Origin: Hydrocarboniphaga daqingensis
Lineage (GTDB): Bacteria > Pseudomonadota > Gammaproteobacteria > Nevskiales > Nevskiaceae
Assembly: GCF_900129825.1 (NCBI RefSeq)
Contig: NZ_FQWZ01000006.1
Location: forward strand, 145,674 to 209,673
Length of the DNA stretch: 64,000 bases
Direction: 5' to 3'
A program made the position numbers and the translations under genes. How positions within the stretch are numbered: the stretch's first letter is position 1; each line of letters begins with the position of its first letter. A model generated the notes under the pieces. It searched no databases. It saw nothing but the letters and a program-made list of their open reading frames with translations, and was not told the DNA's origin. Positions 50,908-57,135 of the stretch are shown one piece after another.

Positions 50908-51295
50908 CCGTGTCGACTTACCGTCGCATCACGGCGGTGATGACGTTAAACGGATACCCGTCGCCGTCGGTTTTGTAACAAGCCGCGTCTTGCCTAGCCT
51001 TTGAGTGTAGAACAAGGCGATGCCATTCCCGCAACGGCATGCTTCCTGCGAAAGTGTCAGCGTGCAGACGCCCTCACGCCCACAGCGGTTGCCCCGGCAG
51101 ACGAGCCGGACGATGACGCATCCGCTTGGTGAGCTCGACTCATGCGGTCGCCGTCGCGCGGTGACCGCTGCGGCTGCCACCGCATCACGTTCTTTATGAC
51201 GACAAGCCTCCATCGTGTGTCCGCTACGCGTCACGACACACCGTTCGTTGGGGAATTTCTACCGTGCAGGCGGTCGAAGGTTTCGCTAGCGCAGG

Positions 51296-51318
51296 GCTTG
51301 CATCCAATTCATGCAAGC
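51296..51318. promoter_or_regulatory. inverted repeat 1 upstream of prkA
   Basis: GCTTGCAT-N7-ATGCAAGC: perfect 8-bp arms separated by CCAATTC, about 90 bp before the prkA ATG. It looks like an operator for a dimeric regulator. Confidence 0.5.
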
Positions 51319-51407: not shown

Positions 51408-53330
51408 ATGGGTTTGCTGAATAGTTTCCGGGAGCAGTACCTGAAGAACCGCGACGAGGAAATGTCGCTCGAAGAGTACTTGCTGCTGTGCAAAAACGAT
51501 CCGCTGGCCTATGCCACGCCTGCCGAGCGCATGCTGGCCGCCATCGGTGAGCCCGAGATCATCGACACGCGTAACGACACGCGCCTGTCGCGGCTGTTCT
51601 CCAATCGTGTGATCCGGCGCTATCCGGCGTTCCGCGAGTTCTACGGCATGGAGGAAGTGATCGCGCAGGTCGTGGCCTTCTTCAAACACGCCGCGCAGGG
51701 ACTCGAAGAACGCAAGCAGGTGCTGTACTTGCTCGGTCCGGTCGGCGGCGGCAAATCGTCGATCGCCGAGCGCCTCAAGTCGCTGATGGAGGCCTATCCG
51801 ATCTATGCGATCAAGGGCTCGCCGATCAACGAATCCCCGCTGGGACTGTTCGTGCCCGACCGCGACGGGGCGATGCTGGAAGCCGAGTACGGCATTCCGC
51901 GGCGCGTGCTGTCCGGCATCGCCTCGCCGTGGGCGCTGAAGCGGCTCGAAGAATACGAAGGCGACATCAGTCGCTTCCGTGTCGTGCGACTGCAGCCGTC
52001 GGTGCTGCGTCAGTTGGCGATCGCCAAGACCGAGCCCGGCGACGAGAACAACCAGGACATCAGCTCGCTGGTCGGCAAGGTCGACATTCGTAAGCTGGAA
52101 CTGTTCAGCCAGGACGATCCTGACGCCTATAGCTACTCGGGCGGCTTGTGCCAGGCCAATCAGGGCCTGCTCGAATTCGTCGAGATGTTCAAGGCGCCGA
52201 TCAAGATGCTGCATCCGCTGCTGACGGCGACGCAGGAAGGCAACTTCAAGGGCACCGAAGGCTTTTCGGCGATCCCGTTCAACGGCGTGATCCTGGCGCA
52301 CAGCAACGAGAGCGAATGGCAGACCTTCCGCAACAACAAGCATAACGAGGCCTTCCTAGACCGCGTTTACATCGTCAAGGTGCCGTACTGCCTCCAGGTG
52401 TCGGAAGAAGTGCGCATCTACGGCAAGCTACTGAAGAACAGCTCGCTGGCGAACGCGCCCTGCGCGCCCGGCACGTTGGAAATGATGGCGCAGTTTTCGG
52501 TGCTGACACGCCTCAAGGAGCCGGAGAACTCCAGCATCTTCTCGAAGATGCGCGTCTACGACGGCGAAAGCCTGAAGGACACCGACCCGGCCGCGAAGAG
52601 CTACCAGGAATATCGCGACTACGCCGGCATCGACGAAGGCATGACCGGCATGTCGACGCGCTTTGCGTACAAGGTGCTGTCGGCGGTGTTCAACTACGAC
52701 CAGACCGAAGTCGCGGCCAATCCGGTGCACCTGATGTATGTGCTCGAGCAGCGCATTCTGCGCGAGCAGCTGCCGGACGAAACCCAGCGCCGCTACCTGG
52801 AGTTCATCAAGGGCTATCTGTCGGCGCGTTATGCCGAGTTCATCGGCAAAGAAATCCAGACCGCCTACCTGGAGTCGTATTCGGAGTACGGGCAGAACAT
52901 CTTCGACCGTTACGTGACCTTTGCCGACTACTGGATCCAGAACGAAGACTATCGCGACCCCGAAACCGGCGAGTCCTTCGACCGCGCCTCGCTGAATACC
53001 GAGCTGGAGAAGATCGAAAAGCCGGCCGGTATCGCCAATCCGAAGGACTTCCGCAACGAGATCGTCAACTTCGTGCTGCGCGCGCGTAGCCAGCACGGCG
53101 GCAAGAATCCGAAGTGGACCAGCTACGAAAAGCTGCGTGAGGTGATCGAGAAGAAGATGTTCTCGTCCACCGAAGAACTGCTGCCGGTGATCTCGTTCAA
53201 CGCCAAGGCCTCGGCCGAGGACAAGAAGAAGCACGAAAGCTTTGTCACGCGGATGGTGACCAAGGGCTATACCGAAAAGCAGGTGCGACTGCTCAGCGAG
53301 TGGTATCTGCGGGTGCGCAAGTCGGCGTAG
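51408..53330 (+). CDS. prkA: PrkA/YeaG-type AAA+ protein
   Basis: 640-residue AAA+ ATPase historically called a serine protein kinase; the Bacillus homologue has been reported to have protease activity. Walker A GPVGGGKSS (110-118, K116), Walker B/sensor region around FNGVILAHSNESEW, and a C-terminal PrkA domain (PEN-S-S/FSKMRVYDGE, then helices to the end). Start ATG 51408 follows a GTGGAGA site. First gene of prkA-yeaH-spoVR; in E. coli yeaG/yeaH are under sigma-S and nitrogen control and affect stress survival. Cytoplasmic; no membrane segment. Confidence 0.96.
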   Translation: MGLLNSFREQYLKNRDEEMSLEEYLLLCKNDPLAYATPAERMLAAIGEPEIIDTRNDTRLSRLFSNRVIRRYPAFREFYGMEEVIAQVVAFFKHAAQGLEERKQVLYLLGPVGGGKSSIAERLKSLMEAYPIYAIKGSPINESPLGLFVPDRDGAMLEAEYGIPRRVLSGIASPWALKRLEEYEGDISRFRVVRLQPSVLRQLAIAKTEPGDENNQDISSLVGKVDIRKLELFSQDDPDAYSYSGGLCQANQGLLEFVEMFKAPIKMLHPLLTATQEGNFKGTEGFSAIPFNGVILAHSNESEWQTFRNNKHNEAFLDRVYIVKVPYCLQVSEEVRIYGKLLKNSSLANAPCAPGTLEMMAQFSVLTRLKEPENSSIFSKMRVYDGESLKDTDPAAKSYQEYRDYAGIDEGMTGMSTRFAYKVLSAVFNYDQTEVAANPVHLMYVLEQRILREQLPDETQRRYLEFIKGYLSARYAEFIGKEIQTAYLESYSEYGQNIFDRYVTFADYWIQNEDYRDPETGESFDRASLNTELEKIEKPAGIANPKDFRNEIVNFVLRARSQHGGKNPKWTSYEKLREVIEKKMFSSTEELLPVISFNAKASAEDKKKHESFVTRMVTKGYTEKQVRLLSEWYLRVRKSA

Positions 53331-53368
53331 TCGTCATCACCACCGGGTCGTAGCGTCAGGAGAACACG

Positions 53369-54598
53369 ATGTCGATCGTCATCGATCGTCGCTTGAATGA
53401 TCGCAACAAGAGCGCCGTCAACCGCGAGCGTTTTCTGCGCCGCTACAAGGAGCAGATCCGCAAATCGGTCGGCGACCTGATATCGAAGCGTTCGATCACC
53501 GACATGGATCGCGGCGGCGACGTCAACATCCCGTCCAAGGACATCAGCGAGCCGACGTTCCACCATGGCAACGGCGGCGACCGCGAGATGGTGTTGCCGG
53601 GCAACCGCAAGTTCAATCGCGGTGACAAGCTCAAGCGGCCCGACGGCGGGGGTGGTGGCGGCAACGGCAGTGGCGACGGTGAAGGCGGCGGCGACGATTC
53701 CAGTGACGACTTCGTGTTTTCGCTGTCACGCGAAGAGTTCATGAATCTGTTCTTCGACGACCTGGAACTGCCGCACCTAATCCGCAATGCAATCGGCGAT
53801 GTCCGCGAGTTCAAGATGCAGCGCGCCGGCTATACGCCCAGCGGCGTACCGGCCAACCTGTCGGTGACACGCTCGCTGCGCCAGGCGATGGCGCGGCGCA
53901 TTGCAATCGGCGCCCCGCTGCGCCGCCAGATGCGCGAGCTGCAGGCGGCCGAGGTGCCGGCCGACGAGGAGATTGCCGAGCTACAGCGTCGGCTCGACCG
54001 GATTCCGTTCCTCGACGACTTCGATCTGCGCTACCGCCATCGCGTCAAGGTGCCGATGCCGATTTCGCGTGCGGTGATGTTCTGCTTGATGGACGTGTCG
54101 GCGTCGATGACCGAGCAGAAGAAGGATCTGGCCAAACGCTTCTTCACGCTGCTGTATCTGTTCCTGTCGCGCAAATACCAGCGGGTCGAGCTGGTGTTCA
54201 TCCGCCACACCGACAACGCGCAGGAAGTCGACGAACAGGGCTTCTTCCACGACCAGCAGAGCGGCGGCACCGTCGTGCTGTCGGCGCTCAAGCTGATGCA
54301 CGAGATCGCCGTAGCGCGTTATCCGTCCGACGCCTGGAACATCTACGGCGCGCAGGTTTCCGACGGCGATGCGTTCGGCGCCGACCCGGAAAAGAGCCGC
54401 GCGTTTCTGAACGAGCAGTTGCTGCCGCTGTCGCGTTACTTCGCCTACATCGAAGTACCCGACGACCCGATGCGTACCAGTCCTTTGTCCTACGCCTACC
54501 AGCGGATCGACAGCGACAAGTTCGCGATGTCGACCGTGGCCGGCAAGGGCGAGGTTTATCCGGTTCTTCGCGAGCTGTTCAAGAGAGAGGCCGCGTGA
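53369..54598 (+). CDS. yeaH: YeaH/DUF444 protein with intact VWA MIDAS
   Basis: 409-residue cytoplasmic protein, partner of PrkA. A positively charged N-terminus with a GGGGGGNGSGDGEGGG linker (93-108) precedes a von Willebrand A-like domain. The metal-ion-dependent adhesion site is complete: D242-V-S244-A-S246 (LMDVSASM), T301 (SGGTVVLSAL) and D332 (VSDGD). This makes it a likely AAA+ partner in the manner of MoxR/VWA pairs (inference). Starts 38 bp after prkA; its TGA overlaps a GTG start of spoVR by 4 bp. Confidence 0.95.
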   Translation: MSIVIDRRLNDRNKSAVNRERFLRRYKEQIRKSVGDLISKRSITDMDRGGDVNIPSKDISEPTFHHGNGGDREMVLPGNRKFNRGDKLKRPDGGGGGGNGSGDGEGGGDDSSDDFVFSLSREEFMNLFFDDLELPHLIRNAIGDVREFKMQRAGYTPSGVPANLSVTRSLRQAMARRIAIGAPLRRQMRELQAAEVPADEEIAELQRRLDRIPFLDDFDLRYRHRVKVPMPISRAVMFCLMDVSASMTEQKKDLAKRFFTLLYLFLSRKYQRVELVFIRHTDNAQEVDEQGFFHDQQSGGTVVLSALKLMHEIAVARYPSDAWNIYGAQVSDGDAFGADPEKSRAFLNEQLLPLSRYFAYIEVPDDPMRTSPLSYAYQRIDSDKFAMSTVAGKGEVYPVLRELFKREAA

Positions 54599-56112
54599 AC
54601 GCACTGCAACCCACCAGCGGCCCGCTGTCGACCGGCGCCGAATGGAACTTTGAACTGCTGGAAACCTACGACCACGCGATCGCCGACATCGCATTGAATG
54701 AGTACCACCTCGACATCTATCCCAACCAGATCGAGGTGATTGCCTCCGAGCAGATGCTCGACGCCTATGCCTCGCTTGGCTTGCCGATCGGCTATCCGCA
54801 CTGGAGTTACGGCAAGGAGTTCATCCGCAACGAACAGATGTATCGCAAGGGTCAGCGCGGGCTGGCCTACGAGATCGTCATCAACTCCAACCCCTGCATC
54901 GCCTATCTGATGGAGGAGAACAGCCTGCCGATGCAGGCGCTGGTGATCGCGCATGCCTGCTACGGGCATAACTCGTTCTTCAAGGGCAATTACCTGTTCA
55001 AGCAGTGGACCAACGCCGACGCGATCATCGACTACATGGTGTTTGCGCGTAACTTCGTGATGAAGTGCGAGGAGCGCTATGGTCATGGCGCAGTCGAGGA
55101 CGTGCTCGATTCCTGCCATGCGCTGATGAGTCACGGTGTCGACCGCTACCGCCAGCCCACACCGCTGTCGGCCGACGAAGAACGGCTGCGCCAGCGCGAA
55201 CGTGAGGACTACGCCTGGAAGCAATACGACGAGATCTGGCGCACGCTGCCCAGCCGTAACGCCGGCGCCGGCGACAAGCGCGGCAATGAACCGAACTATC
55301 CACCGGAGCCGCAGGAAAACCTGCTGTACTTCGTCGAGAAGCACGCACCCAAGCTCGAGCCCTGGCAGCGCGAGATCGTGCGCATCGTTCGCAAGATGGC
55401 GCAGTACTTTTATCCGCAGGGCCTGACCAAGGTCATGAACGAAGGCTGGGCCACGTTCTGGCACTACACCCTGCTGAATCGGCTCTACGACAAGGGCCAG
55501 GTCGACGACGGCTTCATGCTCGAAGTGCTGACGTCGCATACCAATGTCGTCACCCAGCGCGGCTTCGACCAGCGCGGCTACGGTGGCATCAATCCGTATG
55601 CGCTCGGCTTTGCGATGATGACCGACATCCGCCGTATCTGCGAAAACCCGACCGACGAAGACCGCGACTGGTTTCCGGACATCGCCGGCGGTGATTGGCT
55701 CAAGGTGCTCGACTTTGCGATGCGCAACTACAAGGACGAGTCCTTCATTGGCCAGTTCCTGTCGCCACGGCTGATTCGCGAATTCCACCTGTTCGCGATC
55801 GCCGATCACGCGCGCGACGAGCATTTGCTGGTCGACTCGATCCACAACGAGCAGGGTTATCGACGCGTGCGGCAACTGCTGTCGCAGCAGTACAACCGCG
55901 ACGGCTTGGTGCCCGACATCCAGGTTACCCGCTACGACCATCGCGGCGACCGCTCGCTGACGCTGACGCACCGGCGTCATCGCGGGCGCCCACTCGACGA
56001 CAGCGCCAGTGAGGTGATGAAGCATCTGGCGCGGCTGTGGGGCTTCACGGTCAGGCTGCAGACCCAGGACGACAGCGGCAAGGTCGTTGACCAGCAGGAG
56101 ACCCGGGCTTGA
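54595..56112 (+). CDS. spoVR: SpoVR family protein (YcgB)
   Basis: 505-residue soluble protein. Conserved SpoVR features: PHWSYGKEF near 68-76, ALVIAHACYGHNSFFKGNY, EGWATFWHY and the INPYALGFAMMTDI region; several His and Glu residues could bind metal, but no enzyme activity is established. In Bacillus SpoVR is a spore-cortex factor; in non-sporulating proteobacteria the prkA-yeaH-spoVR trio is conserved and tied to stationary-phase stress. Start GTG at 54595 overlaps the yeaH stop (GTGA). Probably the last gene of the operon. Confidence 0.94.
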   Translation: MNALQPTSGPLSTGAEWNFELLETYDHAIADIALNEYHLDIYPNQIEVIASEQMLDAYASLGLPIGYPHWSYGKEFIRNEQMYRKGQRGLAYEIVINSNPCIAYLMEENSLPMQALVIAHACYGHNSFFKGNYLFKQWTNADAIIDYMVFARNFVMKCEERYGHGAVEDVLDSCHALMSHGVDRYRQPTPLSADEERLRQREREDYAWKQYDEIWRTLPSRNAGAGDKRGNEPNYPPEPQENLLYFVEKHAPKLEPWQREIVRIVRKMAQYFYPQGLTKVMNEGWATFWHYTLLNRLYDKGQVDDGFMLEVLTSHTNVVTQRGFDQRGYGGINPYALGFAMMTDIRRICENPTDEDRDWFPDIAGGDWLKVLDFAMRNYKDESFIGQFLSPRLIREFHLFAIADHARDEHLLVDSIHNEQGYRRVRQLLSQQYNRDGLVPDIQVTRYDHRGDRSLTLTHRRHRGRPLDDSASEVMKHLARLWGFTVRLQTQDDSGKVVDQQETRA

Positions 56113-56262: not shown

Positions 56263-57135
56263 ATGAAGATCCGTTCGATCGGCCGCGCCAGCGCGGTCGC
56301 CGCATGGCTCGTCGTCAGCATGGCCGCTGCACAGGATTCAGAGTCCAGCCTTAGCCGCCGCTGCATGACCGTCGAGCCCAACGCCACCCAGCGTCTGGAC
56401 ATCGACCGCAAGCTCGGTGACTTCCTGCAGGCGCGCGCGCAGCGTGGCGCCAGCCCCTATCGCGCAGCGGGCTCGGTGCTGGTTCCGGTCTATGTGCACG
56501 TGATCAACAACGGCAGCACGCTGGAGCAGGGCAACATTCCGCAGTCGCAGATCGATTCGCAGCTCAGCGTGCTGAACTCGGCCTATGCCGGCACGCCGTT
56601 CCAGTTCACGCTGGCGGCGGTCGACCGTACGACCAACGCCGACTGGTACACGATGTCGCCGGGTAGCGCGGCCGAGAAGGCGGCCAAGACGGCACTACGC
56701 AAAGGCGGCGCTGGTGCGCTGAACCTGTACACCGCCAATCCGGGCGGCGGCTTGCTTGGTTGGGCCACGTTCCCGAGCAGCTACAAGGCACAGCCTTCGC
56801 TCGACGGCGTGGTCGTGCTGTACAGCAGCGTGCCGGGTGGCGCGGCCGCGCCTTACGACGAAGGCGACACCGGCACTCACGAAGTGGGTCACTGGCTGGG
56901 TCTGTATCACACGTTCCAGGGCGGCTGCGGCCTCCAGGGCGACAGCGTCAGCGACACGCCTGCCGAACGTAGCCCTGCGTATGGCTGCCCGACCAGCCGC
57001 AACAGCTGCCCGTTCAAGGCCGGCGACGACCCCATCACCAACTTCATGGATTACGTCGACGATTCCTGCATGTTCCAGTTCACGCCGGCTCAGTCGACGC
57101 GGATGGACCAGATGCACCAGCAGTACCGCAGCTAA
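56263..57135 (+). CDS. secreted zinc metalloprotease, M43/pappalysin-like
   Basis: 290-residue exported protease with signal peptide (cleavage about residue 23, SMAAAQ). Zinc motif [11 protein letters not shown] with H206, E207, H210 and H216 and a Met-turn at M262 ([11 protein letters not shown]) define a metzincin of the M43 type; the cysteines at 34, 222, 242, 249 and 269 probably form disulfides. ATG 56263 follows GGGAGAA. It lies 150 bp after spoVR with no terminator recognised between, and is followed by a strong one. Secreted nutritional protease is the likely role. Confidence 0.87.

Follow-up and report, generated by a model that had tools for sequence, protein, structure and literature searches.

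The genes prkA, yeaH and spoVR lie intact and co-directionally on the + strand of the window, a 64-kb stretch (64,000 nucleotides) of Hydrocarboniphaga daqingensis DNA (contig NZ_FQWZ01000006.1, positions 145,674 to 209,673), and form a module which bacteria either retain complete or lack altogether. Dozens of large phages also carry the three genes together. On an about even balance of the arguments for and against, and by analogy with known AAA+/VWA pairs, they would encode one ATP-driven machine, with PrkA as the motor, YeaH as the adaptor, and SpoVR as client and effector. The gene products are assigned to their Pfam families with E-values between 1e-25 and 1e-178, the spoVR product also matching PF24755, and NCBIfam places them in the same families as YeaG, YeaH, and YcgB of E. 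coli, their established counterparts.

Co-occurrence was assessed in 200 genomes drawn evenly from Pseudomonadota and in a larger draw of 399 genomes, which largely includes the 200. In the smaller sample, SpoVR, DUF444 (the family of YeaH), and PrkA are found in the same 49 genomes, with one further PrkA match below the cut-off. In the larger one, SpoVR, DUF444, and full-length PrkA are present in 128 genomes each; the three sets, which cover 67 genera, are identical and not a single genome contains only one or two of the components (kinship among the genomes inflates any naive co-occurrence probability). Weak matches of the AAA_PrkA model used as probe (1e-7, about 50 amino acids within Lon-like frames of 800-870 amino acids) were left out. 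The all-or-none retention holds even where spoVR is unlinked from the other two genes. An Endozoicomonas locus (L102) lacking yeaH between prkA and spoVR belongs to a genome that carries yeaH twice elsewhere. A scan of the genome collection for other phyla gave nearly only Pseudomonadota; co-occurrence outside this phylum rests on four control genomes, all four of them matched by PF04293, PF04285, and PF06798. The whole module also exists in a divergent version, about 27-31% identical to that of the window, in gammaproteobacterial genomes and on a viral contig (L075/G114, L163, G319). Split matches to spoVR in one genome (G050) and to yeaH in two others (G028 and G199) suggest a frameshift or a broken gene, resulting from sequencing error or decay. 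DUF444 is found on 72 plasmid records, some of which are chromosome-sized records filed as plasmids (e.g., NZ_CP090612, CP110563, NZ_LR134433); one is an E. coli megaplasmid and another a Legionella plasmid, on which SpoVR adjoins DUF444.

When the window proteins were compared with phage records by tblastn, all three were recovered from the huge uncultured phages LR745206, LR756502, LR756504, and LR756511 (595-642 kb) as well as from Thermus phages. In LR756502, spoVR is located about 243 kb from prkA-yeaH, all three genes being kept, while the order in the cultured Thermus phages MN1 and phiYS40 is DUF444-SpoVR-PrkA. In the IMG/VR collection, the triad is complete and ordered as in bacteria at 73 of 80 SpoVR loci; the other seven have little or no upstream sequence, and at one of these a GIY-YIG homing endonuclease lies immediately upstream. 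The reverse scan, starting from YeaH, revealed a complete module at 33 of 35 loci with an internal yeaH; of the two exceptions, one is truncated where the contig ends, while the other is enteric and likely host flank. Merging both scans by contig name, the triad is present on about 89 distinct viral contigs. Viral modules also contain homing endonucleases of the GIY-YIG/NUMOD and HNH/NUMOD types, placed either between the three genes or immediately ahead of them (L222:790-1830; L188:5805-6587). In phiYS40, a gene for a 616-amino acid protein without Pfam family lies between spoVR and prkA (L246:7931-9781, YS40_058) and is a possible fourth component.

Host contamination as the source of the viral copies was considered and is true in part. 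It applies to 44 records starting at yeaH, which are apparently enteric proviruses with host flank, and to Enterobacter phage LAU1 (MN688132.1, L349), which starts with host-like yeaG-yeaH; these were left out of the viral counts, and the remaining copies stand. Matches to terminase, to T4-like capsid proteins, or to both were obtained for 13 of the 24 viral records examined for them (up to 343 kb), some of the capsid matches being short fragments. The nearest relative is another phage in 59-64 of 68 viral sequences, each of the three gene trees requires only six changes between phage and bacterium for 56 viral sequences, and among phages the three proteins show concordant pairwise distances (rho 0.85-0.91). 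From the few tree changes and the matching distances it follows that the module is kept and inherited together in phage lineages. SpoVR is inseparable from the PrkA-YeaH pair in the 399 genomes and in the phages, its role as client being that of a candidate. In the 44 excluded records (L272, L274-L308, L310-L316, L321), the sequence sets in at the start of yeaH or within its opening codons, and phage genes adjoin it, in those examined often the end of a tail-fibre gene; prophages of enterics seem to have used the stretch immediately downstream of yeaH repeatedly for integration.

Conservation was analyzed in relatives from 49 Pseudomonadota genomes, 80 named genome contigs, and 80 viral contigs. 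A first-pass annotation of this DNA had described a complete Walker A motif in PrkA and a complete metal ion-dependent adhesion site (MIDAS) in YeaH as hallmarks of AAA+/VWA pairs such as the MoxR systems. Both motifs are exactly as described: the Walker A lysine of PrkA is conserved in all 191 relatives, and the five MIDAS residues of YeaH are kept in 197/197 sequences. Since MIDAS and Walker A are retained even in relatives of about 25% identity, their presence is not due to chance. The pairing of an AAA+ with a VWA/MIDAS protein is supported by the VWA fold predicted for YeaH, its MIDAS, and a profile match between PrkA and MoxR. The MoxR Pfam model AAA_3 (PF07726) does not match PrkA at E<=1, while it matches true MoxR proteins of the same genome at 1e-62. 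In PrkA, the residues G110, P111, K116, S117, H298, N300, E303, E314, A315, D318, and R319 are near 100% conserved among the 191 sequences. Aligned by hhalign with MoxR of the same bacterial family plus RavA, PrkA yields a probability of 92% and a pairwise E of 5.4e-7 over 191 columns, with the core order of Walker B, sensor 1, EAxxDR, and GxSxR sensor 2 being shared. The lid of PrkA alone does not match MoxR significantly (E 0.03), and the sensor-2 match rests on colinearity; divergent PrkAs carry GVSPR or GLSPR at this position. Searching the PDB with the PrkA profile returned its own solved relative (9xip), Lon via the Walker A region (E ~1e-5), and RavA (E 2.6e-4), the latter match spanning Walker B to EAxxDR. 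The solved relative comprises 30 chains across three entries (9xip, 9xiq, 9xir), which suggests oligomers. On the whole, the profile comparisons point towards a resemblance of PrkA to MoxR-like ATPases; AlphaFold 3 models have put PrkA in AAA+ clade III (PMC13001217), and the two results stand unreconciled.

The AlphaFold2 model of YeaH (predicted local distance difference test, pLDDT, 83; predicted template modelling score, pTM, 0.71) has a Rossmann-like VWA fold. It gave 93 matches in the PDB at E<=1e-3; among the matches listed, almost all are VWA or integrin I domains, and they include NorD of NorQD (9qhe_G) and the MIDAS domain of midasin (MDN1). The Pfam model VWA_2 stayed below the cut-off on YeaH. 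In the hhalign comparison with E. coli ViaA, the DxSxS and GGT motifs are in register.

For SpoVR, a model of higher confidence was obtained (pLDDT 89.4, pTM 0.87). Compared with the PDB, it gave no fold match at E<=1e-3, with template modelling scores to the query of about 0.1-0.2, and no solved sequence relative was found there; one viral match, a nameless protein of 617 amino acids, emerged from the fold comparison. The predicted structure is, hence, an orphan fold at the sensitivity used. The residues H69, E93, N109, H120, H125, E283, and D381 are present in 208/208 sequences, N282 and G284 are also invariant, and the spacing between H120 and H125 is four or five residues. With this set of invariant His, Glu, Asn, and Asp residues SpoVR would plausibly be both an enzyme and a client. 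A hidden metallopeptidase of the DUF885 type was considered, with H120-x(3-4)-G-H125 and NEGxA recalling HExxPGH and EGWA, respectively, and was rejected; hhalign gave a probability of 0.8% and an E of 0.07, the spacing differs, and the catalytic Glu after H120 is absent.

The following scenario is proposed for the module. PrkA would act as a MoxR-like AAA+ ring motor, as its profile similarity suggests. YeaH would be the VWA/MIDAS adaptor, in which a Gly-rich, flexible linker joins a docking N-terminus to the VWA domain and the MIDAS metal of that domain may grip an acidic residue on the client; this is based on the predicted fold, on the invariance of the site, and on analogy with NorD. SpoVR would be the dedicated client and effector; its residues H69, E93, N109, H120, H125, E283, and D381 probably make up an active site, which may be a metal site. 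In the complex thus formed, PrkA-YeaH would remodel SpoVR or load it into an active state, as NorQD does with nitric oxide (NO) reductase and CbbQO with rubisco. Going by the literature, the output would help cells to lower their metabolic activity and to withstand starvation and stress. The module would be self-sufficient enough for phages to carry it whole. A machine made of motor, adaptor, and client fits the behaviour of the module without being proved by it. More tentatively, and with less confidence than in the machine itself, it is possible that large phages of many lineages carry the whole module for host control, that SpoVR is an enzyme of new fold switched on by a MoxR-like AAA+/VWA motor, and that the "kinase domain" of PrkA starts with an AAA+ lid, "kinase-dead" phenotypes reporting on the motor.

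Several points weigh against this scenario. The Walker B of PrkA is non-canonical, with no hhhhDE, V258-E259 being found at the MoxR Asp-Glu in the profile alignment; one purified Bacillus PrkA was reported to be monomeric and to become oligomeric with ATP, its kinase and protease activities being negligible (PMC13001217); and peptide resistance of Salmonella was reported to be affected by yeaH and not by yeaG (PMC2375023), whereas a motor and an adaptor that obligately work together would hardly be expected to differ in this way. The invariant residues of SpoVR may be structural rather than catalytic, and SpoVR may be a targeting subunit for a different client. In the latter case, PrkA and YeaH would act on other host proteins under the direction of SpoVR as targeting or regulatory subunit. 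The co-occurrence and phage data also fit this, and neither a recognised enzyme fold nor a significant DUF885-type match is on record for SpoVR from the comparisons above; its median best identity between phage and bacteria, however, exceeds that of the adaptor YeaH (56% versus 47%), and its invariant residues are of an enzyme-like kind, so that we regard such a targeting role as possible but somewhat doubtful. That the three are separate stress genes which are merely co-regulated is very improbable; spoVR (ycgB) does lie far from yeaGH in some enterics, but the all-or-none retention in 128 of the 399 genomes includes unlinked cases and phages carry the whole module in rearranged order.

PrkA has historically been annotated as a serine/threonine kinase, for which YeaH and SpoVR would be regulator and substrate. 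In E. coli, YeaG variants with the exchange K426A or a C-terminal truncation do not complement, and K426 was taken as the kinase lysine (PMC4664914). This residue, K422 in the window, is located four positions past the arginine of the invariant GxSxR that is aligned to MoxR sensor 2. An invariant catalytic lysine, as is characteristic of Hanks-type Ser/Thr kinases, was not found in the C-terminus of 68 viral and 123 bacterial PrkAs; the K422 column is Asp or Asn in ten of the viral and Asn in one of the bacterial sequences, whereas K116 of Walker A never varies. Because of this position and variability, loss of function in K426A need not mean kinase activity, and this agrees with a 2026 study of B. 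anthracis PrkA, in which kinase activity was negligible and no kinase P-loop was present (PMC13001217). The kinase reading is, therefore, weak and, in our estimation, unlikely to be correct; the lysine would rather be part of the AAA+ lid, a rereading that is new within the literature searched. A protease role, also raised in the first-pass annotation, is more unlikely still. In that case PrkA would degrade proteins in an ATP-dependent, Lon-like manner, YeaH being the adaptor and SpoVR the substrate. Its Walker A region does resemble Lon, and ATP-dependent protease activity of B. subtilis PrkA, which would also count against the proposed machine, has been reported by another group, as far as can be taken from its citation in PMC13001217. 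Yet Pfam detects neither a Lon proteolytic domain nor any other protease family in PrkA, and the negligible protease activity of B. anthracis PrkA became undetectable once a trace amidohydrolase was removed (PMC13001217).

The closest worked example of the proposed arrangement is NorQ-NorD, a MoxR AAA+/VWA pair for iron insertion into cytochrome c NO reductase. There, a finger of the VWA protein enters the AAA+ pore, ATP-driven rotation stretches the linker, and the MIDAS is proposed to touch an acidic residue of the client (PMC13036017, PMC9976466); NorD MIDAS mutants abolish client activity with NorQ binding being kept (PMC9976466). Both systems combine an AAA+ ring motor, putative in the case of PrkA, with a protein composed of N-domain, disordered linker, and C-terminal VWA-MIDAS, and a candidate client is encoded nearby. 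Unlike NorQ, PrkA has no MoxR Pfam match, a long extra C-terminal domain, and the aberrant Walker B; unlike the NorQD client, SpoVR has a predicted orphan fold, and in PrkA-YeaH a finger-in-pore contact would be hypothetical. The same kind of pairing is found in RavA-ViaA and CbbQ-CbbO. The VWA domain of ViaA aligns to YeaH and the Walker B-EAxxDR portion of RavA to PrkA (hhalign), but these pairs belong to other families by sequence and their clients, fumarate reductase and rubisco, are unrelated to SpoVR.

The same three protein families are represented by yeaG-yeaH and ycgB of E. coli, where ycgB is not beside yeaGH as it is in the window, and by prkA, yhbH, and spoVR of B. subtilis; work on these homologues has centred on stress, starvation, or sporulation and has not treated them as one machine. 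The first-pass annotation had called a joint role of the three proteins not well described, which otherwise holds, except that co-conservation of the triad in bacteria was reported in 2007 together with effects of yeaH and ycgB on peptide resistance (PMC2375023) and that phenotypes of YeaG and YeaH exist: deletions of yeaG and yeaH are alike in nitrogen-starved E. coli (PMC4664914), and the YeaG-YeaH pair acts as a "metabolic brake" (PMC10954441). The association of DUF444 with SpoVR is known as well (PMC12804078). Phage genes named "spoVR" and "serine kinase" (phiYS40, RsoM2USA, marine viromes) are members of the same families and have been listed separately. In jumbo phage RsoM2USA, SpoVR (ORF28) and PrkA (ORF30) were put in different categories (PMC8504454), a marine virome study takes viral spoVR as a sporulation gene (PMC8940887), neither paper identifying a module, and in PHROGs the best-matching family of each of the three proteins is labelled "unknown function". 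No report of a complete three-gene phage module was found in the literature searched; as most subscription papers and preprints lie outside that search, novelty is provisional. New, as far as searched, are the strict all-or-none pattern across 399 genomes, the carriage of the whole module by many phages, the orphan fold of SpoVR, and the invariance of MIDAS and SpoVR residues down to about 25% identity.

The coordinates of the module are compiled in Table 1. The start-stop coupling of spoVR to yeaH that had been noted is real, and a Shine-Dalgarno-like AGAGAGG precedes the GTG start of spoVR. The fixed stoichiometry deduced from it had to be dropped; the 4-nucleotide overlap occurs in only about 12 of 44 relatives with both genes adjacent, the intergenic distance among relatives ranges from -14 to +164 nucleotides, and four enteric genomes have spoVR elsewhere or 8.3 kb away. 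Because the distance varies and enteric spoVR is unlinked, the gene overlap is in general uninformative on stoichiometry. Upstream of prkA, at 51287-51302, a weak sigma-54-like site is present (TAGCGCAGGGCTTGCA, 12 of 15 positions, equalled in 12% of shuffles). One relative (L053) has a full sigma-54 consensus, TGGCACAGGGCTTGCA. The next gene downstream (56264-57135), outside the module, encodes a secreted-looking zinc metalloprotease-like protein. A PADLOC search for defence systems gave no convincing match for the module.

Table 1. Module genes and sequence features, numbered from the first nucleotide of the window
Feature	Position	Strand	Description
prkA (yeaG)	51408..53330	+	640 amino acids; AAA+ ATPase with C-terminal PrkA domain; PF08298, E 4.6e-178; PF06798, E 7.3e-68; NCBIfam NF011999
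PrkA Walker A, GPVGGGKS, residues 110-117	51735..51758	+	K116 in 191/191 relatives
PrkA Walker B region, residues 256-259 (E-F-V-E)	52173..52184	+	E259 invariant, usual Asp replaced by V/I/A; aligned to MoxR/RavA Walker B
PrkA EAFLDR, residues 314-319	52347..52364	+	MoxR-like EAxxDR, putative arginine finger; E314, A315, D318, R319 invariant; aligned to MoxR EAQLDR
PrkA GMSTR, residues 414-418, followed by K422	52647..52673	+	putative AAA+ sensor 2; G414, S416, R418 invariant; aligned to MoxR GASPR
yeaH (DUF444)	53369..54598	+	409 amino acids; N-terminal helices, flexible linker, C-terminal VWA domain; PF04285, E 7e-162
YeaH Gly-rich disordered linker, residues 93-111	53645..53701	+	pLDDT < 50
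YeaH MIDAS DVSAS, residues 242-246	54092..54106	+	D242, S244, S246 invariant in 197 sequences
YeaH MIDAS T301	54269..54271	+	invariant in 197 sequences
YeaH MIDAS D332	54362..54364	+	invariant in 197 sequences
GTGA overlap, yeaH stop/spoVR start	54595..54598	+	4 nucleotides; in a minority of relatives
spoVR (ycgB)	54595..56112	+	505 amino acids, GTG start; orphan-fold protein, putative enzyme and client; PF04293, E 1.6e-174
SpoVR H120-ACYG-H125	54952..54969	+	invariant His pair, 208/208
SpoVR N282-E283-G284	55438..55446	+	invariant

The genes yeaG, yeaH, and spoVR are found in E. coli, Bacillus, Thermus, Haloferax, and many others, where they are stress-responsive and have no agreed biochemical function. 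If they constitute one AAA+/VWA machine, three decades of separate "kinase", "unknown", and "sporulation" labels would give way to a single system open to testing. Natural variants that show which residues matter are available in the phage copies, some with only about 25% identity, and the Thermus phages offer themselves as experimental systems in which the module can be deleted. In virome surveys, a viral spoVR would then have to be read as one third of a machine and not as a lone sporulation gene.

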